64,000 nt of DNA from Blastococcus colisei (GTDB taxonomy: Bacteria > Actinomycetota > Actinomycetes > Mycobacteriales > Geodermatophilaceae): positions 496,001-560,000 of the forward strand of contig NZ_VFQE01000001.1 of the NCBI RefSeq assembly GCF_006717095.1, read 5' to 3'. The position numbers and the translations under genes were made by a program. The notes under the pieces were generated by a model. The model was not told the origin of the DNA. It made no database searches and saw only the letters and a program-made list of their open reading frames with translations. Positions 226 to 14,544 of this stretch are shown here, piece by piece. Numbering within the stretch: position 1 is the stretch's first letter; every line of letters starts with the position of its first letter.

Positions 226-1695
226 TCAGGCGGTCGCCGGCTGGAGCACCTCGTAGTCGTCGAGCCGGAACGTCCGCATGGCTTCCTGGTACTCCCCGAC
301 GCTGCCGGACCAGTTGTTCGTGATGTGCCCGTCGGCGGTCTTGTACCAGCTGGTGCAGCCGCCGGCGAAGGCCGTGCCGCGCAGCGTCTCCTGGAGGCGG
401 TCGTTGAACCGGTGCATCGCCTCCCGTCGAACGTCCAGGGCGACGGCCGACGTCTCGGCACGGGTGCGCAGTGCCTGGAGGACGTAGTCGTACTGGCACT
501 CCAGCATCAGGATGATCGAGTTGTGGCCCAGGTTGGTGTTGGGGCCGTACAGCAGGAAGAGGTTGGGGAAGCCGCTGACCGTGGTGCCGAGGTAGGCACG
601 CGCCCCGTCGTGCCAGACATCGCGCAGGGACCGCCCGTCCCGGCCGGTGATCTCCAGGTCGCCGAGGAACGACAGGGTCTCGAACCCGGTGGCGTAGATG
701 ACCACGTCGAGCTCGTGGACGGCGCCGTCCCGGGTGCGGAGACCTTCGGGGACCACCTCGGCGATGCGCTCGGTGACCAGTTCCACGTTGTCGCGCATCA
801 GCGCGGGGTAGTAGTCGTCGGCGACGAGAACCCGCTTGCAGCCGAGGGGATAGTCGGGCCACAGCTTCTCGCGGAGTTCGGCGTCGGGCACCTGGGTCTC
901 CAGCAGCTCCCTCGCGATGCGGTAGAACTCGTCGAGCACCGGGTTGGCGTCGAGCTTCATGGCGCCGACCCAGCTCTCGTGCTCGGCGAAGAAGGCCTCC
1001 CGGCTCTCCAGCAGCCGGGCCGCGCCGCGGTACAGCTGCCGCTCGTCCTGGTCGTAGGCACGGTCCATCCGGGGTACGTGGTAGTTCGCCGAGCGCTGGA
1101 ACACCGTCAGGGAGGCCACGTCCCCGGCGATCTGCGGCACGATCTGGACCGCGCTGGCCCCGTTGCCGACGACTGCCACCCGCTTGCCCGCGAGATCGAC
1201 GTCGTGGCGCCACTGGGCCGAGTGGAACGAGGCGCCCCGGAAGCTCTCCCGCCCCTCGATGCCCTTGAACGACGGCCGGTTGAGCTGGCCCCAGGCGCCG
1301 ACGAACACCTCGGCGACGATCTGCTCTCCGGCGGTCGTGCCGATCAGCCACCGGCCACGCTCGTGATCCCACTCGGCGCGGTTCACCTCGGCGTTCAGCC
1401 GGATGTGCGGGGCGAGGTCGTACCGCTCGACGAAGGACTCGACGTTCTGCCGGATCTCCGGCTGCTGCGCGTAGAGGCGGGTCCAGTCGGGCTGCTGATC
1501 GTCGAAGGAGTACCAGTACAGGTGGGACTGCACGTCGCAGGCGGCGCCGGGATAGGTGTTCTCGCGCCACGTCCCCCCGACCGCGTCGGCTTTCTCCAGG
1601 ACGACGAAGGAGGACTTCCCCTCCTTCTTGAGCTTCGCCGCCATGCCGAGCCCGCCGATGCCGGCGCCCAGGATCGCGATCGTGTACTCGGTCAT
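226..1695 (-). CDS. Flavin-containing monooxygenase, Baeyer-Villiger type
   Basis: The 489-residue protein starts MTEYTIAILGAGIGGLG, a GxGxxG FAD-binding Rossmann motif at the extreme N-terminus. A second nucleotide motif (VVGNGASA) follows FRGASFHSAQW, which fits the Baeyer-Villiger fingerprint FxGxxxHxxxW. The family uses FAD, NADPH and oxygen to turn ketones into esters or lactones, or to oxygenate soft nucleophiles. The open frame runs upstream to 2505, but that part is antisense to the TetR gene; the ATG at 1695 gives the family N-terminus. It is divergent from the TetR regulator and near a hydrolase and a lactonase, so making an ester or lactone substrate is a fair inference. Substrate unknown. 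Confidence 0.9.
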   Translation of the reverse strand: MTEYTIAILGAGIGGLGMAAKLKKEGKSSFVVLEKADAVGGTWRENTYPGAACDVQSHLYWYSFDDQQPDWTRLYAQQPEIRQNVESFVERYDLAPHIRLNAEVNRAEWDHERGRWLIGTTAGEQIVAEVFVGAWGQLNRPSFKGIEGRESFRGASFHSAQWRHDVDLAGKRVAVVGNGASAVQIVPQIAGDVASLTVFQRSANYHVPRMDRAYDQDERQLYRGAARLLESREAFFAEHESWVGAMKLDANPVLDEFYRIARELLETQVPDAELREKLWPDYPLGCKRVLVADDYYPALMRDNVELVTERIAEVVPEGLRTRDGAVHELDVVIYATGFETLSFLGDLEITGRDGRSLRDVWHDGARAYLGTTVSGFPNLFLLYGPNTNLGHNSIILMLECQYDYVLQALRTRAETSAVALDVRREAMHRFNDRLQETLRGTAFAGGCTSWYKTADGHITNNWSGSVGEYQEAMRTFRLDDYEVLQPATA

Positions 1696-1779
1696 GACAC
1701 TGCTCCTGGGATGATGCGTGGACGGGATGTCGGGCGCCGGCCGGGTGTGATCTGGGTCATGAAGCTGCCAGCTCGGCGG

Positions 1780-1804
1780 TGAAACAGTCAAGGGATGTGT
1801 TTCA
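1780..1804. promoter_or_regulatory. Inverted repeat over the TetR gene's ribosome binding site
   Basis: TGAAACA (1780-1786) and TGTTTCA (1798-1804) form a perfect 7-bp inverted repeat with an 11-base spacer. It covers the AAGGGA ribosome binding site and abuts the ATG of the TetR gene, in the divergent region with the monooxygenase. This is where an autoregulatory TetR operator would lie. The repeat is seen; the binding is inferred. Confidence 0.5.
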
Positions 1805-2460
1805 TGGGCCCACCGGATCCCCCTCCGGACGGCGCGACGCCGGAGGCGGCCGCCGACGGGCCGGCCGATCCGCGGCCCCGGAGCGACGCCGGCGCCGACG
1901 ACTGGCCCGAGCTGGCGCGGCGGGCGCAGGAGCTGGCCGCCCGGTGGGTGCACGACGGCCGGCGCCTGGACATGCGGGGCCTGTCCGCGGAGCTCGGCGT
2001 CTCCCGGGTCACCCTGTTCCGGCACGTCGGCGGGCGGGAGGTGCTGCTCGGGAGGGCTCTGTGGCTGCTGACCGAGCGGACGTTCGCCGCGGCGGAACGT
2101 CAGTGGGAGCTCGGCCCGGAGGGTCTGCGGTCCACGGGGGTCATGCGCCTGTTCAACCAGCGGATCGCTGCGGCGCCCGGCCTGCGCCGGCTCCTGGACG
2201 ACGAGCCCGCACTCGCGATCCGGGTGCTCACCGACCCACGAGGCGCCATCCAGCCTGGCGTCGTCGCGGCTGTCGAGGCGCTGTTGCGGCGCGATGTCCA
2301 GGAGGCCGGTCTCGAGCTGATCCTCGAGCCCGGGGCGCTGGCCTTCGCTCTCGTGCGGATCGGCGAGTCGTTCCTGTACGCCGACGTGCTCGCCAATCGG
2401 ACACCCGACGTCGACATGGCCGACCGGCTGCAACGAGCCCTCATCGAGGGCAGGGCCTGA
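1804..2460 (+). CDS. TetR-family regulator, QsdR-like
   Basis: The protein has 218 residues from the ATG at 1804. The N-terminal helix-turn-helix reads MRGLSAELGVSRVTLFRHVG, then GREVLLGRALWLLTERTF, a pattern I associate with QsdR-type TetR proteins; QsdR controls the lactonase and acyl-CoA ligase of the Rhodococcus gamma-lactone pathway. An ATG at 1795 would give three more residues but sits directly on the AAGGGA ribosome binding site, whereas 1804 lies about eight bases downstream of it. The gene diverges from the monooxygenase and converges on an alpha/beta hydrolase. A role as local repressor sensing a lactone or acyl ligand is inferred. Confidence 0.8.
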   Translation: MGPPDPPPDGATPEAAADGPADPRPRSDAGADDWPELARRAQELAARWVHDGRRLDMRGLSAELGVSRVTLFRHVGGREVLLGRALWLLTERTFAAAERQWELGPEGLRSTGVMRLFNQRIAAAPGLRRLLDDEPALAIRVLTDPRGAIQPGVVAAVEALLRRDVQEAGLELILEPGALAFALVRIGESFLYADVLANRTPDVDMADRLQRALIEGRA

Positions 2461-2474
2461 CGCGCGTGCGGGCG

Positions 2475-2513
2475 CGGTCGGGGTGGCCCGCCACGGGCGG
2501 ACCACCCCGACCG
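2475..2513. terminator. Bidirectional hairpin terminator
   Basis: A perfect 12-bp stem (CGGTCGGGGTGG at 2475-2486, its complement at 2502-2513) lies between the convergent TetR and hydrolase genes. There is no T tract, as is common in high-GC actinobacteria. Confidence 0.65.
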
Positions 2514-2520
2514 CTCGCGC

Positions 2521-3354
2521 TCAGGACATCGCGTGCTTGCCGAGGAACTGCAGCGACATGGGCAGGAACTCCTCGGCCCGCTCCACGCCGAGTGCGTGGC
2601 TGGAACCCGGGCCGGTGAAGAGCTCGAACCGGGCGCCGGGAATGCGCTCGGCGACCGCGCGGCCCTGCCACGGCGGTGTGAGCAGGTCCTGCTCGCCGGC
2701 GACGACCAGGGTGGGGACGGTGATGTCCGTCAGCCGGTCGAGCGTGTCGTGCAGCAGATCGGCGTCCCACTGCTCGGCGGTCGCGGCGATCTGCGCCGGC
2801 GTGCTCGGGAACAGCGGCAGCAGTTGCTCGACCAGGGCGCCGAACTCGGGGCTGTTCAGCAGCTCGGGTGAGAACGCGATACCGAGCGCGCCCAGCGCCG
2901 CCTCCATGTCACCGGTCCGCCACGGATGCGCGAGGCCGGTGATGACCGCGCGCTGGAAGCCGTCGGTCCGGCCCCACGTGCACAGCAGGACGAGCGAGGC
3001 CACCCGCTCGGGCGCGAGCAGGGCCAGCTCCTGGGCGGTGGCGCTGCCCAGGGAGTACCCGAGCACGTGGGCCCGCTCCACGCCGAGCGCGTCCAGCAGG
3101 CCACGCGCATCGGCAGCCAGCGTCGGCACCGTCATCTCGGCCGTTCCGCGCTCGGAAGCCCCGAGTCCCCGCAGGTCGTAGGTGATGACGCGATAGCTGC
3201 CCGCCCACACCTGTGCGGCCTCGGCCCAGAAGCCGAGGGACTGGCTGGTGCCGTTGATGATGAGCAGCGGTTCACCTTCCCCGTACTCCTGGACGGCGAC
3301 CGAGATGTCGCCGACCTCGACGGTGCGCGCTGCGTGGACGGTGGGTGCGGTCAA
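2521..3354 (-). CDS. Alpha/beta hydrolase
   Basis: The 277-residue protein is an alpha/beta-hydrolase fold enzyme. The nucleophile elbow GYSLGS puts Ser near residue 100; DLRGLGASERG precedes it, VVAGEQDLLTP carries the likely acid residue and GSSHALGVE the histidine. The best start is a TTG at 3354 behind GGGAGA; no ATG or GTG fits better, and the longer open frame is shadow. Hydrolysis of an ester or lactone is expected from the fold, and the neighbouring monooxygenase and lactonase genes fit that. The substrate cannot be read from the sequence. Confidence 0.82.
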   Translation of the reverse strand: MTAPTVHAARTVEVGDISVAVQEYGEGEPLLIINGTSQSLGFWAEAAQVWAGSYRVITYDLRGLGASERGTAEMTVPTLAADARGLLDALGVERAHVLGYSLGSATAQELALLAPERVASLVLLCTWGRTDGFQRAVITGLAHPWRTGDMEAALGALGIAFSPELLNSPEFGALVEQLLPLFPSTPAQIAATAEQWDADLLHDTLDRLTDITVPTLVVAGEQDLLTPPWQGRAVAERIPGARFELFTGPGSSHALGVERAEEFLPMSLQFLGKHAMS

Positions 3355-3481
3355 CGGGTCTCCCGGATCTCGTTCCGCCGCTCCGATGCGGCGAAGTGCC
3401 CGGGACTCCACCACACCGGGCCCCCGGGCGGCCAGCCCCCCGGGGCGAGACGGCGGGATGCGCAGCGGCCGGACCCGGGGG

Positions 3482-4762
3482 TCAGGTCGGCGGTTCGGCG
3501 GGCAGGTTCGCGGTGGAGCGCTCGACGTGGAGTGCGACCAGACCTGCCTGGAGCGTCCCGACCCCTCGGCTGGTCGACAGGTCGAGACCGGTGAGGGTGG
3601 CGATCCGGTCCAGCCGCTTGTCCAGGGTGTTGGGGTGGACGTGCAGCGCTTCGGCGGCCTCCCTGCGATTGCGCTCGTGCGCGAGCCAGCAGCGGGCCGT
3701 CTCGAGCAGGTCGGGGTGGGCCGACAGGGGGGCCAGCAGCTCGGCGAGCCGCTCGCGCGCGGGGCCGGGGCGCGACAGCTGGTACTCCAGGACCAGGTCG
3801 TCGACGGAGTAGACCCCGGGGCGCCGGCCGAGCACGCGGACGAGCTCCAGGAGGTCGCCCGCCTGCGCGGCCGCATGCGGCACCCGGTCCACCGTCGGCG
3901 CCGGTACCCAGACTGCGGTCGGTCGGGCGCCGGCCGCCCGGGCCAGGAGGTCCACCGCGCGGGCCGTCTCCGCCGGCCCCGGCAGCGACGTCCCCGTGCC
4001 CGGCAGCAGCACCAGGCCCCCGGCCGGGGACAGCGACGCCAGCGCGGCCGATCGTCCCGGCAGCCGGTCGACCGCTGCCTGCACGCGCCGCACCTTCCGC
4101 CGTCCGGCGACGTCGACGTCGACGGCCTCGTCCTGCTCGTCGTCGGTGGGCCCCAACTGCAGGGCCACCACCAGGTAGCCATCGGCCAGCACGACGCCCA
4201 GTCGCTGTGCGAGCACGTGCGGGGCCGTGCCTTCGAGGACGCCCTGCACCAGGTCGCGCCAGGCAGAGCCCTCGTGGTGCTCGATGGAGCGGCGTTCGGC
4301 GTCGTAGGCCTCGGTGACCGCCTGGAGCATGGCCTGCAGGTAGCGCTGGAGGTACGGGGTGAAGGCGGCCACCTGCGCCTCACGGCCGGGCGGCACCTGT
4401 TCGACGAGCATCTGCCACGTCACCTGGTTGCCGATGACGTAGGCCATCAGGACCGCGTCCAGGGGGACGCCTTCCTCCGCTCGCCGGGCTGCGCCCGCGC
4501 GAGCGGCGGTGAGCTCCCCCGAGGCGGGGAGCCGATCCTCGCGGCAGCAGCGGATGAACGCGGCCATGTTGTCCCGGCACACCTGGGCGATCTCGCCGCG
4601 GAGCTGCTCGTCGGGGAGCCGGCGGTAGAACGGGATCCCCTCCACGAAGCCCGCGACCATGCGCCGGACGGATTCGCCGAGCCGCCGGGAGACGGCCTCC
4701 ACCAACTCCGGTGGAGGCGGCACGGGGGACTGGTCCAGCAGGGCGGGGACGGGGCTGCTCAC
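3482..4762 (-). CDS. PucR/CdaR-family transcriptional regulator
   Basis: The 426-residue protein begins at GTG 4762 behind GAGGAG. The N-terminal half is a helical sensory region and the C-terminus carries the PucR helix-turn-helix: NRREAAEALHVHPNTLDKRL followed by RIATLTGLDL. The middle (VVLADGYLVVALQLG and after) resembles the GGDEF-like linker of CdaR proteins. It is divergent from the transporter-lactonase operon starting at 4919, with two palindromes between, so it is the likely regulator of that operon. PucR proteins are commonly activators responding to a pathway metabolite; the ligand here is unknown. Confidence 0.85.
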   Translation of the reverse strand: MSSPVPALLDQSPVPPPPELVEAVSRRLGESVRRMVAGFVEGIPFYRRLPDEQLRGEIAQVCRDNMAAFIRCCREDRLPASGELTAARAGAARRAEEGVPLDAVLMAYVIGNQVTWQMLVEQVPPGREAQVAAFTPYLQRYLQAMLQAVTEAYDAERRSIEHHEGSAWRDLVQGVLEGTAPHVLAQRLGVVLADGYLVVALQLGPTDDEQDEAVDVDVAGRRKVRRVQAAVDRLPGRSAALASLSPAGGLVLLPGTGTSLPGPAETARAVDLLARAAGARPTAVWVPAPTVDRVPHAAAQAGDLLELVRVLGRRPGVYSVDDLVLEYQLSRPGPARERLAELLAPLSAHPDLLETARCWLAHERNRREAAEALHVHPNTLDKRLDRIATLTGLDLSTSRGVGTLQAGLVALHVERSTANLPAEPPT

Positions 4763-4799
4763 GGGCTCCTCGACGGTCGTTCTGAGGACGGACGGGCGG

Positions 4800-4863
4800 T
4801 GTGACCCGTCACACACAACGGGCTGCAACTGTAGGACCGCAACCACTGCCCCCCGTACGGGGG
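4800..4863. promoter_or_regulatory. Divergent control region with two palindromes
   Basis: Between the PucR gene and the transporter operon lie TGTGAC-CC-GTCACA (4800-4813) and CCCCCGTACGGGGG (4850-4863). Both have perfect half-sites in a 156-bp divergent promoter region, so they are candidate operators for PucR or the QsdR-like repressor. Which protein binds which site is not visible. Confidence 0.5.
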
Positions 4864-4918
4864 CCCTCGACACACTTCCTGCACTCGCGGCCGGTCGTGT
4901 CGCGTCGAGGAGGAACAC

Positions 4919-6115
4919 GTGTCCCGACCCCCCCGGTCCCGTCTCGCCGTCCTGTCCGCCGTGGCATGCCTGTCGCTCGTCGCCGCCTGCGGCGGGTCCG
5001 ACGCCGAGACCGCGAGCGCCGGTTCCGAGGCCGACAGCGAGCTCGTCGCGCAGGCGAAGGCCGCCGTCGAGCAGAACCGGCAGGGCACCGACCGTGCGCT
5101 GCCGGAGAGCGGGCCGGCACCCTTGTCCGACCAGAACATCTGGGTCATCTCCTGCACCGAGGCGGGCGAGGGTTGCTCGGCTCCTGCGGCCGGCGCCAAG
5201 GACGCCGGGGAGCAGCTCGGCTGGGACGTCACCGTCTTCGACGGCAAGGGCACCCCGGACGTCTTCGCCCAGGGCATCCGCACGGCCATCGCGGACCAGG
5301 CCGACGGCATCATCCTCGACGTCGTCGACTGCGTCGCCGCGAAGGCTCCCTTGGAGGAGGCCAAGGCCGCCGGGGTCAAGATCTTCGCGTTCTACTCGCT
5401 GGACTGCGACGACCCCCTGCTCGGCGGTGGTGAGCCGCTGTTCGACGCGGAGATCCTCTACGAGGAGGGCATGACCTACGCCGAGCAGGTGGAAGACGTG
5501 TACTCCAAGAGCGTCGCCGACTACGTCATCGCCGAGACCGAGGGCAACGCGAAGATCATCCAGTTCATCGAGGACGACATCCTCGTCGGGCAGCACCTCT
5601 ACAAGGGCTTCGAGAAGCACATCGAGCCCTGCGGCGGCTGCGAGATCGTCAAGCAGATCCCCTTCACGCTGACCGACCTCGTCACCGGTCAGCTGCAGGG
5701 GAAGGCCGCCGCCGCGCTCACCCAGCACCCGGACGCCAACGTCATGTACGTCCCCTACGACGCGGCACTGACGCTCGGCATCGCCCAGGCCGTCACGGCC
5801 TCCGGTCGGGACGCCGACATGCTCGTCACCGGCGGCGAGGGTCTCTCGCCCAACCTCGGGTTCGTCCGCGAGGGCAAGGGGCAGGACATGATCGCCGGCG
5901 CTCCCGCCCGATGGGTGGGCTGGGCCGCCATCGACGGCATGAACAGGCTGCTGCAGGGCGAGGAGCAGGTCGACGCCGGCATCGGCATGCAGACGCTCGA
6001 CTCCGAGTCGACGCTGCCGACGGAGACCTCCTTCTACGACGGCAACGTCGACGCCGACGGCAAGCCCACGCAGGACTACGAGGCCAACTACCGCACGATC
6101 TGGGGCCTGTCCTGA
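4919..6115 (+). CDS. ABC transporter substrate-binding lipoprotein
   Basis: The 398-residue protein starts at GTG 4919 behind GAGGAG. A signal peptide ends in the lipobox LSLVAAC, so it is a lipid-anchored extracellular binding protein. The body fits the type I periplasmic-binding fold of sugar or autoinducer importers (ADGIILDVVDCVAAK, then AKIIQFIEDDILVGQ, then VMYVPYDAALTLGIAQAV). It heads a five-gene operon with the ATPase, permease, lactonase and acyl-CoA ligase. The ligand is probably what the last two enzymes consume, a lactone or related polar molecule, rather than a sugar; that is inferred from context. Confidence 0.88.
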   Translation: MSRPPRSRLAVLSAVACLSLVAACGGSDAETASAGSEADSELVAQAKAAVEQNRQGTDRALPESGPAPLSDQNIWVISCTEAGEGCSAPAAGAKDAGEQLGWDVTVFDGKGTPDVFAQGIRTAIADQADGIILDVVDCVAAKAPLEEAKAAGVKIFAFYSLDCDDPLLGGGEPLFDAEILYEEGMTYAEQVEDVYSKSVADYVIAETEGNAKIIQFIEDDILVGQHLYKGFEKHIEPCGGCEIVKQIPFTLTDLVTGQLQGKAAAALTQHPDANVMYVPYDAALTLGIAQAVTASGRDADMLVTGGEGLSPNLGFVREGKGQDMIAGAPARWVGWAAIDGMNRLLQGEEQVDAGIGMQTLDSESTLPTETSFYDGNVDADGKPTQDYEANYRTIWGLS

Positions 6116-7659
6116 GCGACGCGACCGGAGGCGCGCAGGACGTCGTCCTGCGCGCCTCCGGGCTGAGCAAGACCTTCGGTCCGACCACCGTCCTCCGGCA
6201 GGCGGGGCTCACCGTCGGGCGGGGCGAGGTGCACGCGCTCCTCGGTGGCAACGGATCGGGCAAGTCGACGCTGGTGAAGCTGCTCGCCGGCGTCCACCGG
6301 GCCGATCCCGGGGGCTCGATCTCGATCGGGGACGTCGAGACGCCCGCTGATTCGTGGTCGGCGGAGGTGGCCAAGAAGCAGGGGCTGCACTTCGTGCACC
6401 AGGACCCGGCCGTCTTCCCGGCCCTCACCGTCGCGGAGAACATCGCCATCGGCCGCGGGTTCGTCACCGGGCGGACCGGTCGCATCGACTGGGGCGCGAC
6501 CCGGCGCCGCACCGCCGAGGTGCTCGACCGTTTCGCCATCCCGGCGACGCCGGACATGCCCGTCGCCGCCCTCCGCCCGGCCGACCGGGTGATGATCGCC
6601 ATCGCGCGGGCCCTGCAGGACCAGGAGGGCGCCCGGGACGGCGTCCTCGTGCTCGACGAGCCCACGGCGTCCCTCCCGGTCACCGAGGTCGAGGTGCTCC
6701 TGTCGGCGCTGCGCCGGTACGCCGAGGCGGGCCAGACGATCGTCTACGTCAGTCACCGGCTGGGCGAGGTGCTCGACTTCGCGGACGAGGTGACCGTGCT
6801 GCGCGACGGGAACGTCGTCGGCTCCCGGCCGGTGCCGGGCATGACCGAGGACGGTCTGATCGAACTGATCGTGGGGCGCCCGCTGGACCGGGTCTTCCCC
6901 GAGCCCCGCACGACCCGGCGCCAGGACGTGGTCCTGTCGGTGCGCGGCCTGGCGACCGGTCCGCTGCGGGGTGTGGACCTGGACCTGCACCGCGGGGAGG
7001 TCCTGGGCGTGGCCGGGCTCCTCGGCTCGGGGCGCACGGAACTGCTGCGGTCGCTCTTCGGCGACCTGCCGGTGACGGCCGGCGAGGTGCTCCTGGAGGG
7101 GAAGCCCCTGCGGCCCCGGGGGCCGCGCCAGGCGATGAAGGCCGGGCTGGCGATGGTGCCGGAGGACCGCGGCTCGGAGGGGCTGTTCCCCGGCATGTCG
7201 GTCCGGGAGAACCTCTCGGCCGCCGTCGTCCCGACGTACTGGCGCAGAGGGCGGCTCCGGCACCGCAGCGAGCGGGACGACGCTCAGCGGCTCGTGCAGC
7301 AGTACGCGGTCAAGCCCGCCACCGACCTCCCACCCGCGGGCACGCTGTCCGGCGGCAATCAGCAGAAGGTCGTCCTCGGGCGCTGGCTGCGGCGGGAGCC
7401 GACGATCCTGCTCCTCGACGAGCCGACCCAGGGCGTCGACGTGAACGCCCGCGCCGACATCTACGCCCACGTCCGTGCCGCGGTCGACCGCGGGACCGCG
7501 GTCCTGCTGGTGACCTCGGACTTCGAGGAGATGTCCCACGTCGCCGACCGGGTGGTCGTGCTGCGCGACGGCGTGGTGGCCGCCGAGCTCCACGCGCCGG
7601 ACATCACCGAGCAGCGGCTGACCGAGCTCTCCTACCTGACCGCGGAGGTCCCCGCATGA
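6112..7659 (+). CDS. Sugar-type ABC transporter ATPase with two nucleotide-binding domains
   Basis: About 515 residues with two ABC domains, as in RbsA-type importers. Domain 1 has Walker A GGNGSGKST and Walker B VLVLDEPTAS, but its signature is AALRPADRVMIAIARAL instead of an LSGGQ-like sequence. Domain 2 has a degenerate P-loop (GLLGSGRTE), a normal signature (LSGGNQQKVVLGRWL) and LLLDEPTQGVDV. No ATG or GTG lies between the end of the previous gene and the first motif. The best start is a CTG at 6112 overlapping the upstream stop as CTGA, so the exact start is uncertain. The 3' end overlaps the permease by four bases. Confidence 0.88.
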   Translation: MSDATGGAQDVVLRASGLSKTFGPTTVLRQAGLTVGRGEVHALLGGNGSGKSTLVKLLAGVHRADPGGSISIGDVETPADSWSAEVAKKQGLHFVHQDPAVFPALTVAENIAIGRGFVTGRTGRIDWGATRRRTAEVLDRFAIPATPDMPVAALRPADRVMIAIARALQDQEGARDGVLVLDEPTASLPVTEVEVLLSALRRYAEAGQTIVYVSHRLGEVLDFADEVTVLRDGNVVGSRPVPGMTEDGLIELIVGRPLDRVFPEPRTTRRQDVVLSVRGLATGPLRGVDLDLHRGEVLGVAGLLGSGRTELLRSLFGDLPVTAGEVLLEGKPLRPRGPRQAMKAGLAMVPEDRGSEGLFPGMSVRENLSAAVVPTYWRRGRLRHRSERDDAQRLVQQYAVKPATDLPPAGTLSGGNQQKVVLGRWLRREPTILLLDEPTQGVDVNARADIYAHVRAAVDRGTAVLLVTSDFEEMSHVADRVVVLRDGVVAAELHAPDITEQRLTELSYLTAEVPA

Positions 7660-8717
7660 CGACCACTCCCGCTCGGACGACGCCGGACCAGGGGGCGCCC
7701 GACCCGGCCGGACCGGTCCGGTCCGAGACCGCCGTCGACGGGCCGCCGGCGCCGCGGACGGCCCGGTTCATGCCGTTCCTCGAGCGCTACGCCCTGCTGC
7801 TCCTCCTCGTGCTGCTGTGCGTGTTCTTCAGCGCCTACGGACCGACCAGCGAAACCTTCCCGAGTCCGGCCAACCTGCGCAACATCCTCGGCAACGAGGC
7901 GGTCATCGCGGTCACGGCGCTCGCGTCGATCATCCCGCTCACCTGCGGGCAGTTCGACCTGTCGGTGGGCTCGGTGGTCGGGCTCTCCTCCATCATCACG
8001 GCGAGCATGGCCGCCGAGCACGACCTGCCGGTCGCGGTGGCGATCCTGCTCGGCGTCCTCTCCGGCTGCGTGGTGGGGCTGGTCAACGGCGTGCTCGTGG
8101 CCAAGATCGGCGTCAACGCGCTGATCGCCACCCTGGGCACGTCCACCCTGGTGGCCGGCCTCATCTCCCTCTACACGGCCAACCAGGTCATCAGCATCGG
8201 CATCCCCGAGAGCATCACGGCGCTCGGCTCGGGGACCTGGCTCGGGCTGCCGCGCACCGTCTTCTCGCTGGCCGTCGTCGCGCTCGCGGTCTACTACCTG
8301 CTCACCCACACGCCCTACGGCCGGTACCTGGCGTCGGTCGGGGTCAGCCCCGGCTCGGCCCGCCTCGTGGGTCTGCGGGTCGACCGGTACGTGCTCTCCA
8401 GCTTCGTCCTGTCCGGCGCGCTCGCCGGGGTGGCCGGCGTCCTGCTGCTGGCGCGCGCCGGTACGGCCAACCCCCAGGTGGGCCCGGGGTTCACCCTCGC
8501 CGCCCTGTCCGCGGCGTTCCTGGGCGCCACCGCCATCAAGCCGGGCCGGTTCAACGTGCTGGGCACGCTGCTGGGTGTCCTCTTCGTCGCCGTCAGCGTC
8601 AACGGGCTGGTGCTCGCCGGGGCCGCCGACTGGGTCCAGCCCACGTTCAACGGCGCGGCGCTGCTCGTCGCCGTCGCCCTGTCCACCGCCATCGCCCGGC
8701 GCCGCGCCGGCACATGA
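7656..8717 (+). CDS. ABC transporter permease, RbsC type
   Basis: The 353-residue permease starts at an ATGA overlap with the ATPase stop. After a polar 40-residue N-terminus it has hydrophobic segments spanning about 45-345. The motifs GQFDLSVGSVVGLSS and GVNALIATLGTSTLVAGL, and the C-terminal TFNGAALLVAVALSTA, are typical of the ribose/autoinducer permease family. It works with the preceding ATPase and lipoprotein. It ends at 8717, just before the lactonase gene, so expression is probably translationally coupled. Confidence 0.9.
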   Translation: MTTTPARTTPDQGAPDPAGPVRSETAVDGPPAPRTARFMPFLERYALLLLLVLLCVFFSAYGPTSETFPSPANLRNILGNEAVIAVTALASIIPLTCGQFDLSVGSVVGLSSIITASMAAEHDLPVAVAILLGVLSGCVVGLVNGVLVAKIGVNALIATLGTSTLVAGLISLYTANQVISIGIPESITALGSGTWLGLPRTVFSLAVVALAVYYLLTHTPYGRYLASVGVSPGSARLVGLRVDRYVLSSFVLSGALAGVAGVLLLARAGTANPQVGPGFTLAALSAAFLGATAIKPGRFNVLGTLLGVLFVAVSVNGLVLAGAADWVQPTFNGAALLVAVALSTAIARRRAGT

Positions 8718-8737
8718 CCATCCAGGAGGAGAACGCC

Positions 8738-9724
8738 ATGCCGCAGGTCCAGACCGTGAAGGGCCCTGTCGACACCGCAGAGCTCGGCCAGACGCTCATG
8801 CACGAGCACGTGTTCGTGCTCAACGCCGACGTCCAGCAGAACTACCCGGAGGAATGGGGGAGCGAGGACGACCGGGTCGCCGACGCCGTGCAGAAGTTGA
8901 ACCGGCTCGCCGGGGTCGGCGTCCGCACCATCGTCGACCCGACGGTGATCGGGTTGGGCCGCTACATCCCGCGCATCCAGCGGATCGCCGAGCAGGTCGA
9001 CCTCAACATCGTCGTGGCCACCGGCTGCTACACCTACGACGACGTCCCGTTCTTCTTCCACTACCGTGGGCCGGCCCTCAACGAGGCCGTCGGTGCCGAG
9101 GTGCCCGACCCGATGGTCGACATGTTCGTCGGCGACATCGAGAACGGCATCGCGGGCACGGGCGTGCGGGCCGGCTTCCTCAAGTGCGCCATCGACCACC
9201 AGGGCATGACCGCCGGTGTGGAACGGGTGATGCGCGCCGTCGCCAAGGCCCACCGCCGCACCGGCGTCCCGATCACCGTGCACACCCACCCCGGCAGCCG
9301 GCAGGGGCTCGCGGTGCAGAAGGTCCTCGATGACGAGGGCGTCGACCCACGGCGCGTCGTCCTGGGCCACAGCGGGGACACGACGGACGTGGACCACCTC
9401 AGCGAGCTGGCCGACGCCGGGTTCATCCTCGGCATGGACCGGTTCGGCATCAACCTGGACACCACGTTCGAGGCCCGTGCCGACACGGTCGTCGAGATGT
9501 GCCGGCGCGGCTACGCGGACCGCATGGTGCTCTCGCAGGACGCCTCCTGCTACATCGACTGGCTGGCGCCGGGCGTCATGGACCTGCTGCCGCAGTGGCA
9601 CTACACGCACATCCACGAGGAGGTGCTTCCCTACCTGCGCGAGCACGGGGTCAGCGACGAGCAGATCGAGACCATGCTCGTGACCAACCCGCGGAGCTAC
9701 TTCGAGAACGTCGGGACGTACTGA
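8738..9724 (+). CDS. Phosphotriesterase-family lactonase or hydrolase
   Basis: The 328-residue protein belongs to the phosphotriesterase branch of the amidohydrolase superfamily. Visible metal-site residues are HEH at about 22-24, a Lys at about 149 in GFLKCAID (candidate carbamylated bridge), His in HTHPGS and LGHSGD, and an Asp in LSQDAS. Members hydrolyse phosphotriesters, lactones or acyl-homoserine lactones; QsdA of Rhodococcus is of this family and similar length. The ATG at 8738 follows AGGAGGAG; an in-frame ATG at 8714 overlaps the permease stop but has a weaker site. Followed directly by an acyl-CoA ligase, lactone opening is the likeliest job. Confidence 0.87.
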   Translation: MPQVQTVKGPVDTAELGQTLMHEHVFVLNADVQQNYPEEWGSEDDRVADAVQKLNRLAGVGVRTIVDPTVIGLGRYIPRIQRIAEQVDLNIVVATGCYTYDDVPFFFHYRGPALNEAVGAEVPDPMVDMFVGDIENGIAGTGVRAGFLKCAIDHQGMTAGVERVMRAVAKAHRRTGVPITVHTHPGSRQGLAVQKVLDDEGVDPRRVVLGHSGDTTDVDHLSELADAGFILGMDRFGINLDTTFEARADTVVEMCRRGYADRMVLSQDASCYIDWLAPGVMDLLPQWHYTHIHEEVLPYLREHGVSDEQIETMLVTNPRSYFENVGTY

Positions 9725-11232
9725 TGGTCCTTCGACCCTTCGACGAGACCGGTGTCGAGCGCGATGCGGCCGGGATCAAGCGCTACACGGAGCTGCCCGA
9801 CTCCGTCGTCGCCATGCTCCGGACGTCGGTGGAGCGCGATCCCGACGCCGAGGCGGTGGTCGAGGTGGACGGCCCCCGCCTCACCTACCGGGAGCTGTGG
9901 GACGCCGCCGCCCGGGTCGCCGGCGGGCTGCGCGCGAGCGGCGTCGGGCGTGGCGACCGGGTGGCCATCCGGCTGGGCAACGGGATCGAGTGGGTGCTGG
10001 GTTTCCTCGGCACGCTCATGGCCGGCGGCGTCGCCGTACCCGTGAACACCCGGTTCACCGACGCAGAGGCGCAGTACGTCGTCGATGACAGCGGCGCCCG
10101 GGTGGTGCTGCGGCCCGGCGCGGCGCTGCCCGACGGCGAGCCCTACGCGGCCGAGGACCTGCGGAGGCAGGACCTGGCCGCGATCTTCTACACCTCCGGG
10201 ACGACGGGTTTCCCCAAGGGGGCGATGACCAGCCACGAGAACTTCCTGACCAACTCGGAGAACGCCCGGCGGGTGGTCGGCCTGCCTGGGCACGACCCGT
10301 CGCTGCGCAACCTCATCTCGGTGCCGCTGTTCCACGTGACCGGATGCAACAGCCAGCTGCTCCCGACCCTCGAGGGTGGCGCTGCGGCAGTCATCATGCC
10401 GGTCTTCGACGTCGGGCGGTTCCTGCGCGTCATCCCCGAGGAACGGATCGCCATCGTCACGACGGTTCCCGCGATCTTCTGGCTGGCGATCAGTCAGGAG
10501 CAGTTCGCGGACGTGGACGTCAGCGGCGTGCGATTCGCCACCTACGGTGGGGCGCCGATCGCGCCGGAGCTCGTGCAGCAGATCAAGCGCAGCTTCCCGG
10601 CTGCCCGCGTAGGGAACGGCTTCGGCCTGTCGGAGACCTCCTCGATCTCCACGTTCCTCCCGCACGAGTACGCCGACACCCATGCCGACTCCGTCGGCTT
10701 CCCGGCCCCGGTCGTCGACCTCGACCTGACCGACGTCGACACGACCACGGGCGTCGGCGAGCTGCTGATCCGTGGCGCCCAGGTCGTGCAGGGCTACTGG
10801 AACAAGCCGGAGGCGACCGAGCAGGCGTTCGCGGAGGGCTGGCTGCGCACCGGCGACCTGGCCCGCATCGACGACGACGGATTCACCTACATCGTCGACC
10901 GGGCGAAGGACATGATCAACCGGGGCGGGGAGAATGTGTACTGCGTCGAGGTCGAGAACGCCCTGGCCGCGGCGCCCGGCGTCTTCGAGATCGCGGTCGT
11001 CGGCGTGCCCGACCCGATGATGGGGGAGAAGGTCGGCGCGGTCGTGGTGCCCACGCCCGGCACCGAGTTCGACGTCGAGGTGTTCCTCGCCCACGCCCGC
11101 GAGCACCTGGCCGACTTCAAGGTGCCGCAGTTCGTGGCGGTGCGCCCGGGCGCCCTGCCGCGCAATCCGGGCGGCAAGGTGCTCAAGCCGGTGCTGCGCA
11201 GGGAGACCGACTGGAGTCCGGTGCAGCGGTGA
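9724..11232 (+). CDS. Acyl-CoA ligase, AMP-binding family
   Basis: The 502-residue enzyme starts at 9724, sharing one base with the lactonase stop (TGATG). Adenylate-forming motifs are complete: phosphate loop YTSGTTGFPKGAM near residue 155, GFGLSETSS, GWLRTGDLA, DRAKDMINRGGENVYC and the C-terminal lysine region PRNPGGKVLK. It would convert a carboxylic acid to its CoA thioester with ATP. Coming after a lactonase, the substrate is probably the hydroxy acid released by ring opening, as with the qsdC ligase of Rhodococcus. It is the last gene of the operon and precedes a strong hairpin. Confidence 0.9.
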   Translation: MVLRPFDETGVERDAAGIKRYTELPDSVVAMLRTSVERDPDAEAVVEVDGPRLTYRELWDAAARVAGGLRASGVGRGDRVAIRLGNGIEWVLGFLGTLMAGGVAVPVNTRFTDAEAQYVVDDSGARVVLRPGAALPDGEPYAAEDLRRQDLAAIFYTSGTTGFPKGAMTSHENFLTNSENARRVVGLPGHDPSLRNLISVPLFHVTGCNSQLLPTLEGGAAAVIMPVFDVGRFLRVIPEERIAIVTTVPAIFWLAISQEQFADVDVSGVRFATYGGAPIAPELVQQIKRSFPAARVGNGFGLSETSSISTFLPHEYADTHADSVGFPAPVVDLDLTDVDTTTGVGELLIRGAQVVQGYWNKPEATEQAFAEGWLRTGDLARIDDDGFTYIVDRAKDMINRGGENVYCVEVENALAAAPGVFEIAVVGVPDPMMGEKVGAVVVPTPGTEFDVEVFLAHAREHLADFKVPQFVAVRPGALPRNPGGKVLKPVLRRETDWSPVQR

Positions 11233-11238
11233 CCGGGC

Positions 11239-11273
11239 CGTCCCGGCGGCGCGCGCTCGCAGCCGCCGGGACG
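11239..11273. terminator. Hairpin terminator at the end of the lactone operon
   Basis: A perfect 12-bp stem (CGTCCCGGCGGC at 11239-11250, complement at 11262-11273) lies between the ligase stop and a convergent small gene, so it probably terminates both strands. Confidence 0.7.
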
Positions 11274-11279
11274 CCGGGG

Positions 11280-11492
11280 TCAGCGGACCGCGGGGATCTC
11301 GTTGGTCGTGGTGGCCGGGAGCGACGCCCACGCGTCGGGGTGGGGCCGGCCGGCGTCGACGACCCAGGACGGCGTCGGCGAGGGCACGCCGGCCGCGCGG
11401 GTCTGCGGCCTGGCGCTGAGGCTCACGATCAGGGCGAGGAGCACGAGCAGTCCGACAAGGACACCGCCGATGACCAGGAGCGTGGAGAGCAT
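11280..11492 (-). CDS. Small single-pass membrane protein
   Basis: A 70-residue open frame starting MLSTLLVIGGVLVG has one strong transmembrane helix (about residues 3-26) and a proline- and serine-rich tail. No family is recognised. There is no clear ribosome binding site before the ATG at 11492, so it could be leaderless or start upstream. The hydrophobic N-terminus and the terminator facing its end are the only support that it is real. Confidence 0.5.
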   Translation of the reverse strand: MLSTLLVIGGVLVGLLVLLALIVSLSARPQTRAAGVPSPTPSWVVDAGRPHPDAWASLPATTTNEIPAVR

Positions 11493-11736
11493 GAGGAGAA
11501 GGTATGCGGGGGACCGATCCGTGTCATGCGACCCGCTCCAGCAGATATCACCGAAGATAAGCGCAGGATTGCTCATCATTCGCCGCTTGACGGCGCAGCT
11601 CTGACGTCGGTTTCGGCACATGCCGACATCTCGCTCCTGGGCCAGGTCGCCGCCGGTACCGGCGGGCCGAGCGGTGGGGACTGCGCGGCGACCGCGCTCG
11701 GTGTCGTACCGCCGCGACCCGGGGTAGGACCGCCGG

Positions 11737-12450
11737 ATGCGGACCGGAGCACGGCTGGGGGCGACGGTGGCCCGGGGGGCCGGCCGGCTGGTGGCGGTGC
11801 CCCTCGGGGCGATCGCCCGGTGGCGGGACGGCAAGCCGATGCACCCGCGGGGCGCGGTCTTCGACGCCGTCCTGGAGCGGCAGGGCGGCCCCGTCGAGTG
11901 GGGCGTCCCCTGGCTGGACGCATCGGGGACCGACGCCGCGGTCGCGCGGCTCTCGCGCGGCGCGGGTCTGCCGGAGCCGCTGCCGGACGTCCTGGGGCTG
12001 GCCGTCCGGGTGTCGGGGGACGCCGGCCCGATCGACCTCCTGCTGAGCACCACCGGCACGGGGCCGATCACCCGGTTGCTGCCCGTCCTGCGGCGGAACA
12101 CCGCGGCGGTCCACTCCTCGATCATGGGTTACCGCTCCGACGCCGGGACCCTGCGCCTGGCCGCGTTCCCCGAGGCCGAGCAGTTGCCGTCCGAACCCCG
12201 CGCGCTCGCCCGCGAGGTGGCCCGGAACGGCGTGCGGTTCAGCGTCGCCGCCGCCCGTGGCCTCGGGCCCTGGCAGCCGTTCGCCCGGCTCACGCTGACC
12301 GCGCCGCTGCCCTCCCTCGATCCGGACGTCCGCTTCGACGCCGTCCAGAACCCACCGCCGGGCCTGGTGCCCGACGGGCCGATGGCCCGGTTCCGGGCCC
12401 CCGCCTACGCCCGGGCCCGCGCGGCGCGCGGCCCCACGCCGGAGAGCTGA
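11737..12450 (+). CDS. Catalase-fold-like protein of unknown function
   Basis: The 237-residue protein has KPMHPRGAVFDAVLERQ early, ARLSRGAGLPEPLPDVLGLA in the middle and LTLTAPLPSLDPDVRFD late. The spacing resembles the core of the catalase-related family (His-Pro-x-Gly, then R-x-S, then G-x-A-x-R), shortened and with no evident heme-ligand tyrosine. Homologues are widespread in actinobacteria, usually with uninformative names. No signal peptide or clear operon partner is visible. Treat as hypothetical with a possible catalase-like fold. Confidence 0.7.
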   Translation: MRTGARLGATVARGAGRLVAVPLGAIARWRDGKPMHPRGAVFDAVLERQGGPVEWGVPWLDASGTDAAVARLSRGAGLPEPLPDVLGLAVRVSGDAGPIDLLLSTTGTGPITRLLPVLRRNTAAVHSSIMGYRSDAGTLRLAAFPEAEQLPSEPRALAREVARNGVRFSVAAARGLGPWQPFARLTLTAPLPSLDPDVRFDAVQNPPPGLVPDGPMARFRAPAYARARAARGPTPES

Positions 12451-12691
12451 GGGCGGTGCCGGCGTCGTGCCGCGCTCGCGGGCGGCTGCGGCCGGCCGTT
12501 CCCGCGCCCCGGCGCTGACCCGAACGCGGTCACCCGGTCACCCGATGGGGTTGCCCACGGGTTGGCCCACGAAGGCGGTGGGTAGGGCGGACCAGACCGG
12601 CTCGAACATCCTGGCCGGGCGCTGAGACCGTCGAGCAGCACGCCGTGCTGTCGCAGTGCTCGACCACACGAGGAGCCGGACGAACCCTGTG

Positions 12692-13738
12692 ATGCCCGCC
12701 GACCCCCCTGAAACCAGGGGGTCGCTCCACCGGGGCGGCCCCGTCCGCGTGGCGACGATCCCGTTCGCCGACCCCTACGTCGACGCCGTGCTCCCACCCG
12801 ACGTCCTCCGGGTCGGCCCCTCGGGCGAGGTCAGCCCCTGGCTGGATCACGCGTACCTCGCCGCACACGCCGCGGAGATCGACGTCCTGCACCTGCACAC
12901 CGGGCCGGCAAGCTCGACGGCTGCGGCCGTCGAGTGCTGGGCCGAGACCGTCCGGCGACTCGGGGTCCCGCTGGTGGTCACCGTGCACGGGCTCGGTGCC
13001 CGGGCCGGGGACGGCGGCTGTCCCGGGAACCCGGCGATGGACGCGCACCTCGAGGCGGTGCTGTCGACGGCCGAGGTGGTCTTCACGCTCACTCCGGGCG
13101 CGGCCGACGAGATCGCCGAGCGGTACGGCCGCACGGCCATCGTGGTCGCGCACCCCGCGGTCGCCGCCCCGGATCCGGACGTGGGTGCCGAGCGAGGGCT
13201 GGTGGGCCTGCGGCTGGGGCGGGTCTCGGCCGCCGTCCCCGATCCGGGGGCACTGGTCCGCGCCACGCTGTCCGGAGCCGTCTCGGGGGGCGGAAGGCTC
13301 CGGGTGCTCGTCGACGCCGCGGACGAACCGTGGGCCGGGAGCGAGGCGCGCAAGCTGGCGGCCCGCGGGGAGCTGGAACTCCTCGTCCACCCGAGCAGCG
13401 AGTGGCCGGCGCAGTTGCAGCAGCTGCACGTGGCGGTGCTGCCCGAACCGTGCGGCCACCACTCCCGCGACCTGGAGATCTGCCGGGACGTCGGGACCCG
13501 CGTCGTCGCCCCCGGTTGCGGATGGTTCGCCGACCAGTGGTCCGACGTCGTGTCCTACGGCAGCCACGAGCAGGGCCGTCTGGACCCCGTCTCGCTCGCC
13601 GCCGCCATCGGCGCGGCGCTGATCCGCCCGATGCCACGTCCGGCCGACTGCGACTGGCGGGAGGAGCAGCGCGCCGCGGTGCGCCAGGTGCACGCCGACG
13701 TCTACGCCCAGGTGGCGGGGGACCGCAGCTGGGTCTGA
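12692..13738 (+). CDS. Glycosyltransferase family 4-like protein
   Basis: About 348 residues. The N-terminal half looks like a GT-B donor-independent domain: DVLHLHTGPASS, then RLGVPLVVTVHGLGAR, then VFTLTPGAADEIAERYGRTA, which parallel the HxH and serine/threonine landmarks of GT4 enzymes. The C-terminal half is less typical and lacks an obvious E-x7-E motif (LPEPCGHHSRDLEICRD is nearest). AGGAG at 12670-12675 serves the GTG at 12689 or the ATG at 12692. Acceptor and donor are unknown. It is monocistronic, upstream of the tRNA cluster on the other strand. Confidence 0.7.
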   Translation: MPADPPETRGSLHRGGPVRVATIPFADPYVDAVLPPDVLRVGPSGEVSPWLDHAYLAAHAAEIDVLHLHTGPASSTAAAVECWAETVRRLGVPLVVTVHGLGARAGDGGCPGNPAMDAHLEAVLSTAEVVFTLTPGAADEIAERYGRTAIVVAHPAVAAPDPDVGAERGLVGLRLGRVSAAVPDPGALVRATLSGAVSGGGRLRVLVDAADEPWAGSEARKLAARGELELLVHPSSEWPAQLQQLHVAVLPEPCGHHSRDLEICRDVGTRVVAPGCGWFADQWSDVVSYGSHEQGRLDPVSLAAAIGAALIRPMPRPADCDWREEQRAAVRQVHADVYAQVAGDRSWV

Positions 13739-13828
13739 GGAAGGATCTTGTCCGCCTCCTCCTCGCACGCTCGGAGTGAGCCTCGGGAGGGGGCCGGACC
13801 CGGGTCGGGCCGCAGATGTGATGGTGTG

Positions 13829-13902
13829 TGGGCAGGGGCGGGGTCGAACCGCCGACCTCTCGCTTTTCAGGCGAGCGCTCGTACCGACTGAGCTACCTGC
13901 CC
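13829..13902 (-). tRNA. tRNA-Phe (GAA)
   Basis: A full cloverleaf on the minus strand: acceptor GGGCAGG pairs with CCTGCCC, the anticodon loop CTGAAAA gives GAA, and the T loop is TTCGACC with discriminator A. CCA is not encoded. It is last of three tRNAs transcribed in the order Glu, Asp, Phe. Confidence 0.96.
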
Positions 13903-13925
13903 CTCCCGGTGTCTCCACCGGAGAG

Positions 13926-13999
13926 CGACCCTGACGGGACTCGAACCCGCGACCTCCGCCGTGACAGGGCGGCGCGCTAACCAACTGCGCTACAGGGCC
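13926..13999 (-). tRNA. tRNA-Asp (GTC)
   Basis: Acceptor GGCCCTG pairs with CAGGGTC, the anticodon loop CTGTCAC gives GTC, and the T arm contains GGTTCGAGTCC with discriminator G. Middle gene of the three-tRNA cluster. Confidence 0.96.
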
Positions 14000-14013
14000 T
14001 TGCTGGTCGTGCG

Positions 14014-14086
14014 TGCCCCCAACGGGGTTCGAACCCGTGCTACCGCCTTGAAAGGGCGGCGTCCTGGACCACTAGACGATGGGGGC
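14014..14086 (-). tRNA. tRNA-Glu (TTC)
   Basis: Acceptor GCCCCCA pairs with TGGGGGC, the anticodon loop CTTTCAA gives TTC, and the T loop is TTCGAAC with discriminator A. First gene of the minus-strand tRNA cluster. Confidence 0.96.
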
Positions 14087-14191
14087 TCGTAGTTCGCCGG
14101 GGGCGGAGGAAACAATACATGGCCCTCCGGGCCGCCCGTCGCGGGGTCCGTGCGCGCCTTCCTCCGGAGCGCCTGCGGGGCTGCGTGACCG

Positions 14192-14521
14192 TCAGCCGAG
14201 GGAGGCGGTCAGCTCCACGGAGTCGCCGGTCACGCTGGAGCACTCCAGCTCGAGCGGGCCGGCGACGACCGACTCGCCCTCGCCGCAGGAGACGCTGGCG
14301 CCACCCACGCTCAGCGAGGCCCGACCGTCCTGGACGCCGCCGAACGTCAGCGTGGTGCCGAGGATGTCCGCCTCCGCGCCGTCGCCGGCCAGCGTGACCG
14401 TGCACGAGCTGGTCGAGCAGCTGACCCCGTTGGCGGTGAAGGAGCAGGCGGACAGCGGCAGCAGCAGCGCTCCGGCAAGGAGCGTGGCGGCAGCGCGGGA
14501 GGCCGCCGAGGTCGAAGACAT
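14192..14521 (-). CDS. Small secreted lipoprotein
   Basis: The 109-residue protein begins with a signal peptide ending in LLLPLSAC, a good lipobox. The mature part is short, serine/threonine-rich, with two CSTSSC-like cysteines (VSCSTSSCTVTL) and a later pair (VSCGEGE, LECSSV) that could form disulfides. No family is recognised; the beta-rich pattern suggests a small extracytoplasmic domain. It lies 23 bases downstream of the metallophosphoesterase gene on the same strand and is probably cotranscribed with it. Confidence 0.75.
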   Translation of the reverse strand: MSSTSAASRAAATLLAGALLLPLSACSFTANGVSCSTSSCTVTLAGDGAEADILGTTLTFGGVQDGRASLSVGGASVSCGEGESVVAGPLELECSSVTGDSVELTASLG

Positions 14522-14544
14522 GCCCCGAGGGTAGGTGGACGCCG

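Follow-up and report, generated by a model that had tools for sequence, protein, structure and literature searches.

The 64,000 nucleotides of Blastococcus colisei DNA examined here (the window) begin with nine genes, between positions 226 and 11,232, that a first-pass annotation had read as a single lactone-use locus resembling the qsd operon of Rhodococcus, with an importer of its own. Our comparative analysis points instead, with a probability that we put slightly above even, to two neighbouring catabolic units with proposed roles, because the acyl-CoA ligase is not QsdC, the candidate QsdR-type operator is located at the monooxygenase gene, and the importer unit is separable from the rest. 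In the first unit, a QsdR-type repressor would sense a lactone-like effector and control a divergent Baeyer-Villiger-type monooxygenase, which probably oxidises a ketone, cyclic or linear, to a lactone or ester; the alpha/beta hydrolase or the lactonase could in turn cleave that product. In the second, a PucR-controlled cassette (PucR, binding protein, double ATPase and permease) is situated between a GMC oxidoreductase gene and a closely spaced lactonase-ligase pair, and when PucR is active the cell would co-produce the proteins that take up one organic compound, open its ring (or hydrolyse an ester) and activate it with coenzyme A; this compound would presumably be a small water-soluble lactone or one that becomes a lactone inside the cell. 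Searches with Pfam and NCBIfam models, together with pattern searches of the host genome (5.16 Mb), delineated the following features.

226 to 1695, minus strand: Baeyer-Villiger-type flavin monooxygenase (FMO-like, Pyr_redox_3; Pfam, NCBIfam)
1780 to 1804, no strand: candidate operator TGAAACA-N11-TGTTTCA, an inverted repeat of the QsdR type that runs into the TetR start (genome and locus pattern search)
1795 to 2460, plus strand: predicted QsdR-type TetR repressor (TetR_C_36); start at 1795 or 1804
2521 to 3354, minus strand: alpha/beta hydrolase, PcaD-like (125 bits, under the family cut-off)
3482 to 4762, minus strand: PucR-type regulator (HTH_30; Pfam), divergent from the importer operon
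4799 to 4814, no strand: candidate PucR operator GTGTGACCCGTCACAC (conserved repeat)
4919 to 6115, plus strand: solute-binding lipoprotein, Peripla_BP_4, CUT2-type (Pfam, alignment of relatives)
6112 to 7659, plus strand: double ATPase of the CUT2-type importer (Pfam, NCBIfam; start codon uncertain)
7656 to 8717, plus strand: permease, BPD_transp_2 (Pfam, NCBIfam)
8738 to 9724, plus strand: predicted phosphotriesterase-like lactonase, clade A (frame open from 8714)
9724 to 11232, plus strand: AMP-forming acyl-CoA ligase, not QsdC (Pfam, NCBIfam)

All nine genes of the first-pass annotation are present with the stated domains in their translations, but the interval assigned to them (1695-11232) needs correction, given that the monooxygenase gene lies almost wholly to its left. 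The tight junctions of the five-gene operon are likewise borne out: the open frames of the binding protein and ATPase, and of the ATPase and permease, overlap by 4 bases each (the ATPase start, a CTG at 6112, being ambiguous), and the lactonase and ligase genes overlap by 1 base. The lactonase frame could start at 8714, overlapping the permease gene by 4 bases, or at 8738; the latter, preceded by AGGAGG and 20 bases past the permease stop, is most likely the start as judged from the sequence. The same five-gene order recurs in two other named genomes, Blastococcus capsensis (locus L006) and Geodermatophilus sp. DF01-2 (L007), which argues that the arrangement is more than chance. Partial matches to the operon were found in 14 records of the plasmid collection, none of which covers 80% of it.

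The TetR protein, its candidate operator and the monooxygenase

The first-pass description of the TetR protein as QsdR-like is well supported. It matches the Pfam model TetR_C_36 with 112 bits (QsdR itself scores 83 bits with the same model), is the best match to QsdR in the host genome (35%, 59 bits) and has 4za6, named as QsdR in passages of PMC6262395, as its only match in the Protein Data Bank (PDB) at E <= 0.001. Among the pocket residues of QsdR taken from the same passages, Arg96, Leu158 and Tyr159 are kept (with the numbering shifted by one, as our copy of QsdR is without one residue).

The repeat TGAAACA-N11-TGTTTCA at 1780-1804, between the monooxygenase and TetR genes, is the single exact site in the host genome, against a chance expectation of approximately 0.001 per genome (calculated from base composition, with spacers of 9-13). 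The next-best site in this genome, at another place, differs from the pattern at 2 bases; at that tolerance, a reversed control pattern also yields 1 match. A comparable element is found in the R. erythropolis-type qsd cluster, which we located through a published qsdC primer in two Rhodococcus genomes (L113 and L114; 2 of 28 genomes searched): both have TGAGACA-N11-TGTCTCA, the only inverted repeat with arms of at least 7 bases found in the qsdR-qsdA region. The transcription starts of qsdA and qsdR, each a T, are placed 43 and 104 bases upstream of the start codons in passages of PMC6262395, where two palindromes are also mentioned. Counted out in L113, on the assumption of identical start codons and a like strain, these starts fall on the base that opens the right arm and on the one that closes the left arm, respectively, both T. 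A merged pattern, TGARACA-N11-TGTYTCA, occurs exactly at only four distinct places (the window, L145, L113 and L114; 7 rows including duplicates) in 2.54 Mb of sequence comprising 206 partly overlapping records, and in L145 the repeat is retained despite altered flanks.

There is no exact QsdR-type repeat at the lactonase operon, the start of which is about 3.1 kb from the TetR gene and its repeat, with the PucR and hydrolase genes in between. Since the sole exact candidate operator sits at the monooxygenase gene, the TetR protein is most likely a QsdR-type repressor that controls the monooxygenase and not the lactonase operon. As for the monooxygenase, its best NCBIfam model is PtlE, at 193 bits against a cut-off of 1100; both Rossmann motifs can be read, as can FxGxxxHxxxW, with Arg as the next residue, where the motif of type I Baeyer-Villiger monooxygenases, FxGxxxHxxxW(P/D), has Pro or Asp. 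In L145, a 79% identical monooxygenase gene is again divergent from the TetR gene, which is followed by genes for a zinc alcohol dehydrogenase, a MoxR ATPase and a VWA protein. The breakdown of cyclic alcohols classically proceeds through an alcohol dehydrogenase, then a Baeyer-Villiger enzyme and then a hydrolase, and as the partners in L145 fit this progression from alcohol to ketone to lactone, the monooxygenase can be predicted to make a lactone or ester. An 81% identical copy of the alpha/beta hydrolase is also present in L145.

Relatives of the TetR protein have other partners as well. Ten of the 28 QsdR-like TetR genes of the family Geodermatophilaceae (L118-L121, L126, L131, L133, L135, L137 and L138; 43-51% to that of the window) are located 44-131 bases from a same-strand gene for a PETase-type hydrolase (identified with Pfam in L151 and by clustering in the rest), and L150 contains a QsdR-type repeat with 1 mismatch about 180 bases before the PETase-type gene that precedes its TetR gene. 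Lactonases as partners of these relatives were considered and dismissed, no lactonase match being found in the 13 stretches L146-L158, one of which (L147) is cut by a contig end.

The lactonase and the ligases paired with it

The hydrolase encoded at 8738-9724 has as its best PDB match 4if2, a phosphotriesterase homology protein that we take to be PPH of Mycobacterium tuberculosis (433 bits), followed by 2vc5, presumably SsoPox (249 bits), with phosphotriesterases below 190 bits. The binuclear metal site, at the positions that we assume for phosphotriesterase-like lactonases (PLLs), is complete (HxH, Lys, two His and Asp), and the equivalents of SsoPox Y97, R223 and W263 are all present. Tyr97 has a role in the lactone pocket; its equivalent is Y106 and that of Trp263 is W283, in the numbering of the frame from 8714. 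A role of Trp263 in the same pocket is described in passages of PMC3781021. This tryptophan is kept in QsdA and in 73 of 74 relatives but not in the host's own 47% paralogue; these relatives, which were also used for a tree, are those of the 80 best loci (among 123 confirmed places) that passed limits on gene length.

The window enzyme thereby shares all metal-ligand and tested lactone-pocket residues with the known PLLs (QsdA/AhlA, PPH and SsoPox), whereas it belongs to a separate clade, A, and has Gln immediately before the metal-ligand Asp (window 9536-9538), as do 59 of the 74 relatives, in place of the His of QsdA. Its closest named relatives come from Blastococcus and Geodermatophilus. 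Copies with at least 75% identity, assigned to clade A by this measure, occur in 22 of the 112 genomes of the family, and copies with 56-60% identity (clade B) also in 22, five genomes having both. Since clade A, clade B and QsdA each form a single clade of their own in a tree of 28 chosen rows, with no settled branching order among them, the window hydrolase is, by its features, a PLL and not a strict counterpart of QsdA. The lactone-opening role read by the first-pass annotation is supported by the complete active site, and the enzyme falls in a clade of its own beside QsdA.

The ligase departs further from the qsd model. The best match to QsdC in the host genome is another gene (C1:3351983; 56%, 661 bits), and the window ligase appears only in row 13 of 35 (36%, 171 bits; 32% over its length) and, judged by these comparisons, is not orthologous to QsdC. 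Within 16 kb around the host's best QsdC match, we detected no match to QsdA, QsdR or QsdD (E 1e-6). A ligase of the window's family is instead tied to lactonases of both clades: it lies directly 3' of a clade A lactonase in 12 of the 80 loci (74-87%) and directly 5' of a clade B lactonase in 7 of the 9 clade B loci fetched out of 22 rows (64-69%). A different ligase (34-36%) is found directly 5' of the lactonase in another 9 of the 80 loci, and in L085 a 35% ligase just downstream overlaps the lactonase end.

Hence the products fall apart when compared with the Rhodococcus qsd proteins: the TetR protein is of the QsdR type, the hydrolase is in its own clade and the ligase, which does adjoin the hydrolase as first described, is not QsdC. 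A single qsd-like locus that imports and uses a lactone, with the QsdR-like TetR protein as its sensor, accounts for the 61-62% identity between the window lactonase and QsdA and for the QsdR-type regulator with its QsdR-type candidate operator, but not for the rank of the ligase, the position of the only exact operator, the three separate lactonase clades or the occurrence of the importer unit without the TetR and monooxygenase genes; we consider it improbable.

The importer, its PucR regulator and their relatives

The hallmarks of a CUT2 importer are all present according to Pfam (Peripla_BP_4, a fused double ATPase and a BPD_transp_2 permease), so that the importer is complete as originally described, and none of its three proteins reaches an NCBIfam cut-off among the matches listed. 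Its conservation beside lactonase-ligase pairs, however, extends to only 2 of the 12 pairs among the 80 loci, those of L006 and L007. In L006/L159, exactly the PucR, binding protein, ATPase and permease genes intervene between the GMC oxidoreductase and lactonase genes, and the 21 kb of L006 contain no match to the monooxygenase, TetR protein or alpha/beta hydrolase. In the importer-less lactonase-ligase loci L008-L014 of Geodermatophilaceae, the gap between the GMC and lactonase genes is approximately 85-170 bases. The host shares the upstream backbone of these loci (metallo-hydrolase, second ligase and GMC oxidoreductase) and the two conserved genes downstream of the pair; its GMC-lactonase interval additionally holds a penicillin-binding-protein-type gene and the monooxygenase, TetR and alpha/beta hydrolase genes.

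The pair can evidently persist without the importer, because one genome, G022, keeps only permease fragments and another, G009 (L217), has no permease fragments. The G022 locus (L216 8538-8997) contains, between the GMC gene and the lactonase gene, three permease fragments in three frames, which are the remains of a decayed importer to judge from their sequence; the adjacent lactonase and ligase matches are full-length, with one TGA in a longer lactonase match that is stop-free from residue 5 onward.

The importer is accompanied by PucR in both L006/L159 and L007/L145. The repeat GTGTGA-N4-TCACAC at 4799-4814 is conserved in the three genomes and is a single site in the host genome (chance expectation about 0.09), which makes it a candidate PucR site. 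The consensus of GlxR/CRP has a spacer of 6, and an assignment of this repeat, with its spacer of 4, to these regulators was dropped. All 14 aligned rows of the binding-protein clade (window 4919-6115 and L100-L110) share four cysteines besides that of the lipobox (C138, C163, C238 and C241 in the window sequence), which suggests disulphides.

The relatives of the importer have a wide range of neighbours. In the family, binding-protein relatives at E 1e-20 or better are found in 14 of the 112 genomes, namely the host's own protein, 2 with 86-89% identity and 11 with 35-39%; one of these 11 (L106) is encoded with an importer that adjoins an amidase. Across the class, the importer is matched in 23 of 394 genomes, the host included, and loci from 16 of the other 22 were fetched. 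Chosen neighbour genes were run through Pfam and the others named by clustering with them, and in the lower-G+C loci L186 and L113, where our simple gene caller misses genes, tblastn and open-reading-frame lists were used. L188 has a GAF-PucR protein, an acyl-CoA dehydrogenase and a 30% relative of the monooxygenase as neighbours, L192 has members of the same clusters, L190 an aromatic-type set and L191 an amidase and a ligase; several other loci (e.g., L189 and L200) have no catabolic neighbour of these kinds. The contexts examined are non-sugar ones by gene content, and because the neighbours vary, the importer clade appears to serve several kinds of organic-compound catabolism, so that import of a lactone by the window importer is plausible.

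Several observations weigh against two units with the roles proposed here, in which the substrates are predictions from sequence. In the first unit, Glu90, Phe106 and Pro161 of the QsdR pocket are replaced by Ala, Ala and Asp in the window TetR protein, and Leu162 is changed also; the exact repeat is found at none of the 27 other TetR loci of the family (36-62%) and is therefore no general mark of this TetR family; and the link of the alpha/beta hydrolase to the unit is weak. Both repeats, on the TetR side and on the PucR side, were chosen after inspection. In the second unit, 7 of the 11 distant binding-protein relatives (L101-L105, L107 and L108) lie beside an aromatic-ring-cleavage-type set of FAD hydroxylase, glyoxalase-type dioxygenase and fumarylacetoacetate hydrolase families (by Pfam in L103, by clustering in the rest). 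Moreover, the closest importer outside the family, L186 (binding protein 59%, ATPase 67%, permease 71%), is surrounded at 1270-15128 by genes for an amidase, a nitrile hydratase beta subunit, an aldehyde dehydrogenase, a flavin reductase and a luciferase-type monooxygenase, with no lactonase match in the locus, which is possibly one for nitrile or amide uptake. Given these non-lactone gene sets, the window importer may carry something else.

Such observations favour an alternative of appreciable, if minor, likelihood, namely that a general-purpose importer of aromatic compounds, esters or amides landed 5' of the lactonase-ligase pair; either the two would have unrelated jobs, or the phosphotriesterase-type enzyme would not act as a lactonase on the imported compound. 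The survival of a full-length lactonase and ligase beside the fragmented importer of G022 agrees with this view, as does the finding, reported in passages of PMC13188901, that knocking out a CUT2-type binding protein gene in Rhodococcus AH-ZY2 affects how the strain grows on phthalate esters and degrades them. Nevertheless, a chance landing sits poorly with the five-gene order kept in three genomes, the overlapping or closely spaced junctions in the window and the one conserved repeat on the PucR side ahead of the operon, and we continue to favour two catabolic units, the second of which would form a functional whole.

Relation to known systems and implications

The parallels with the qsd cluster of R. 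erythropolis (qsdR-qsdA-qsdC and qsdD) are the adjacency of a PLL-type lactonase and an AMP-forming ligase and a QsdR-type TetR protein with the same 7-11-7 inverted repeat. In contrast, the TetR gene and operator of the window are at the monooxygenase gene and not divergent from the lactonase gene, the ligase is of another family, and the transporter is an ATP-binding cassette (ABC) system of the CUT2 type with PucR, whereas the gene neighbouring qsd, qsdD, is of the MFS type according to passages of PMC4640858, an assignment that Pfam confirms. The first-pass view that the importer and PucR control have no known counterpart in the qsd operon must accordingly be revised, all the more so as PucR accompanies a different ABC importer in Nocardia. 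There, PucR is found beside a clade A lactonase in 14 of the 80 loci, 13 of which also have an SBP_bac_3/BPD_transp_1 fusion and 12 a MalK-like ATPase (Pfam on one member per cluster), an importer type unrelated to that of the window; the Nocardia PucR has no match to the window PucR at E <= 0.001 and is only 25% identical to that of L159. In these loci (L038-L084), a single gene encodes the binding protein fused to the permease, and in L079, L081 and L084 this gene and that of the ATPase lie downstream of the lactonase gene in the same orientation. In Planotetraspora, a ligase-lactonase-MFS arrangement is seen in 4 of the 80 loci. Clade A is thus paired with at least 3 kinds of transporters, since CUT2, MFS and Nocardia-type ABC systems are all seen beside its lactonases. 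The 4497-4498-4499 genes of Rhodococcus AH-ZY2 share with the window the order binding protein-ATPase-permease and a non-sugar context, a likeness drawn from gene order and context (PMC13188901), whereas the window has a lactonase-ligase operon. Among the literature matches listed, as titles and the beginnings of abstracts, no paper deals with a CUT2 importer in a lactonase-ligase operon or with QsdR-type control of a monooxygenase.

A further possibility is quorum quenching, with the importer taking up acyl-homoserine lactones for degradation. These signals are thought to diffuse into cells, the clade of the window lactonase differs from that of QsdA, and the importer's relatives accompany other compounds, so that we regard this reading as highly improbable. 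In its favour, QsdA is needed for acyl-homoserine lactone degradation (passages of PMC6262395), and AhlA and PPH hydrolyse both short- and long-chain lactones (passages of PMC3468530).

The two-unit reading can also be extended, in a form that we consider unlikely, to a circuit with two sensors, in which a PucR-run CUT2 importer of the sugar class, re-purposed for lactones, would feed the lactonase and ligase of its own operon while a QsdR-type sensor and its operator would serve a lactone-making monooxygenase in place of a lactonase. If so, the making and breaking of lactones would be regulated separately.

The locus is a new and coherent arrangement of known parts. If our interpretation is correct, lactone catabolism is rebuilt in bacteria from interchangeable parts, one lactonase clade having been combined with ligases of two families, transporters of three unrelated kinds and several regulators. 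The quorum-quenching sensor QsdR and its operator would have been reused for another enzyme, and the repeat would provide a precise candidate operator for QsdR itself. Furthermore, these findings would suggest which class of substrates may be carried by a clade of sugar-type importers that is so far an orphan.

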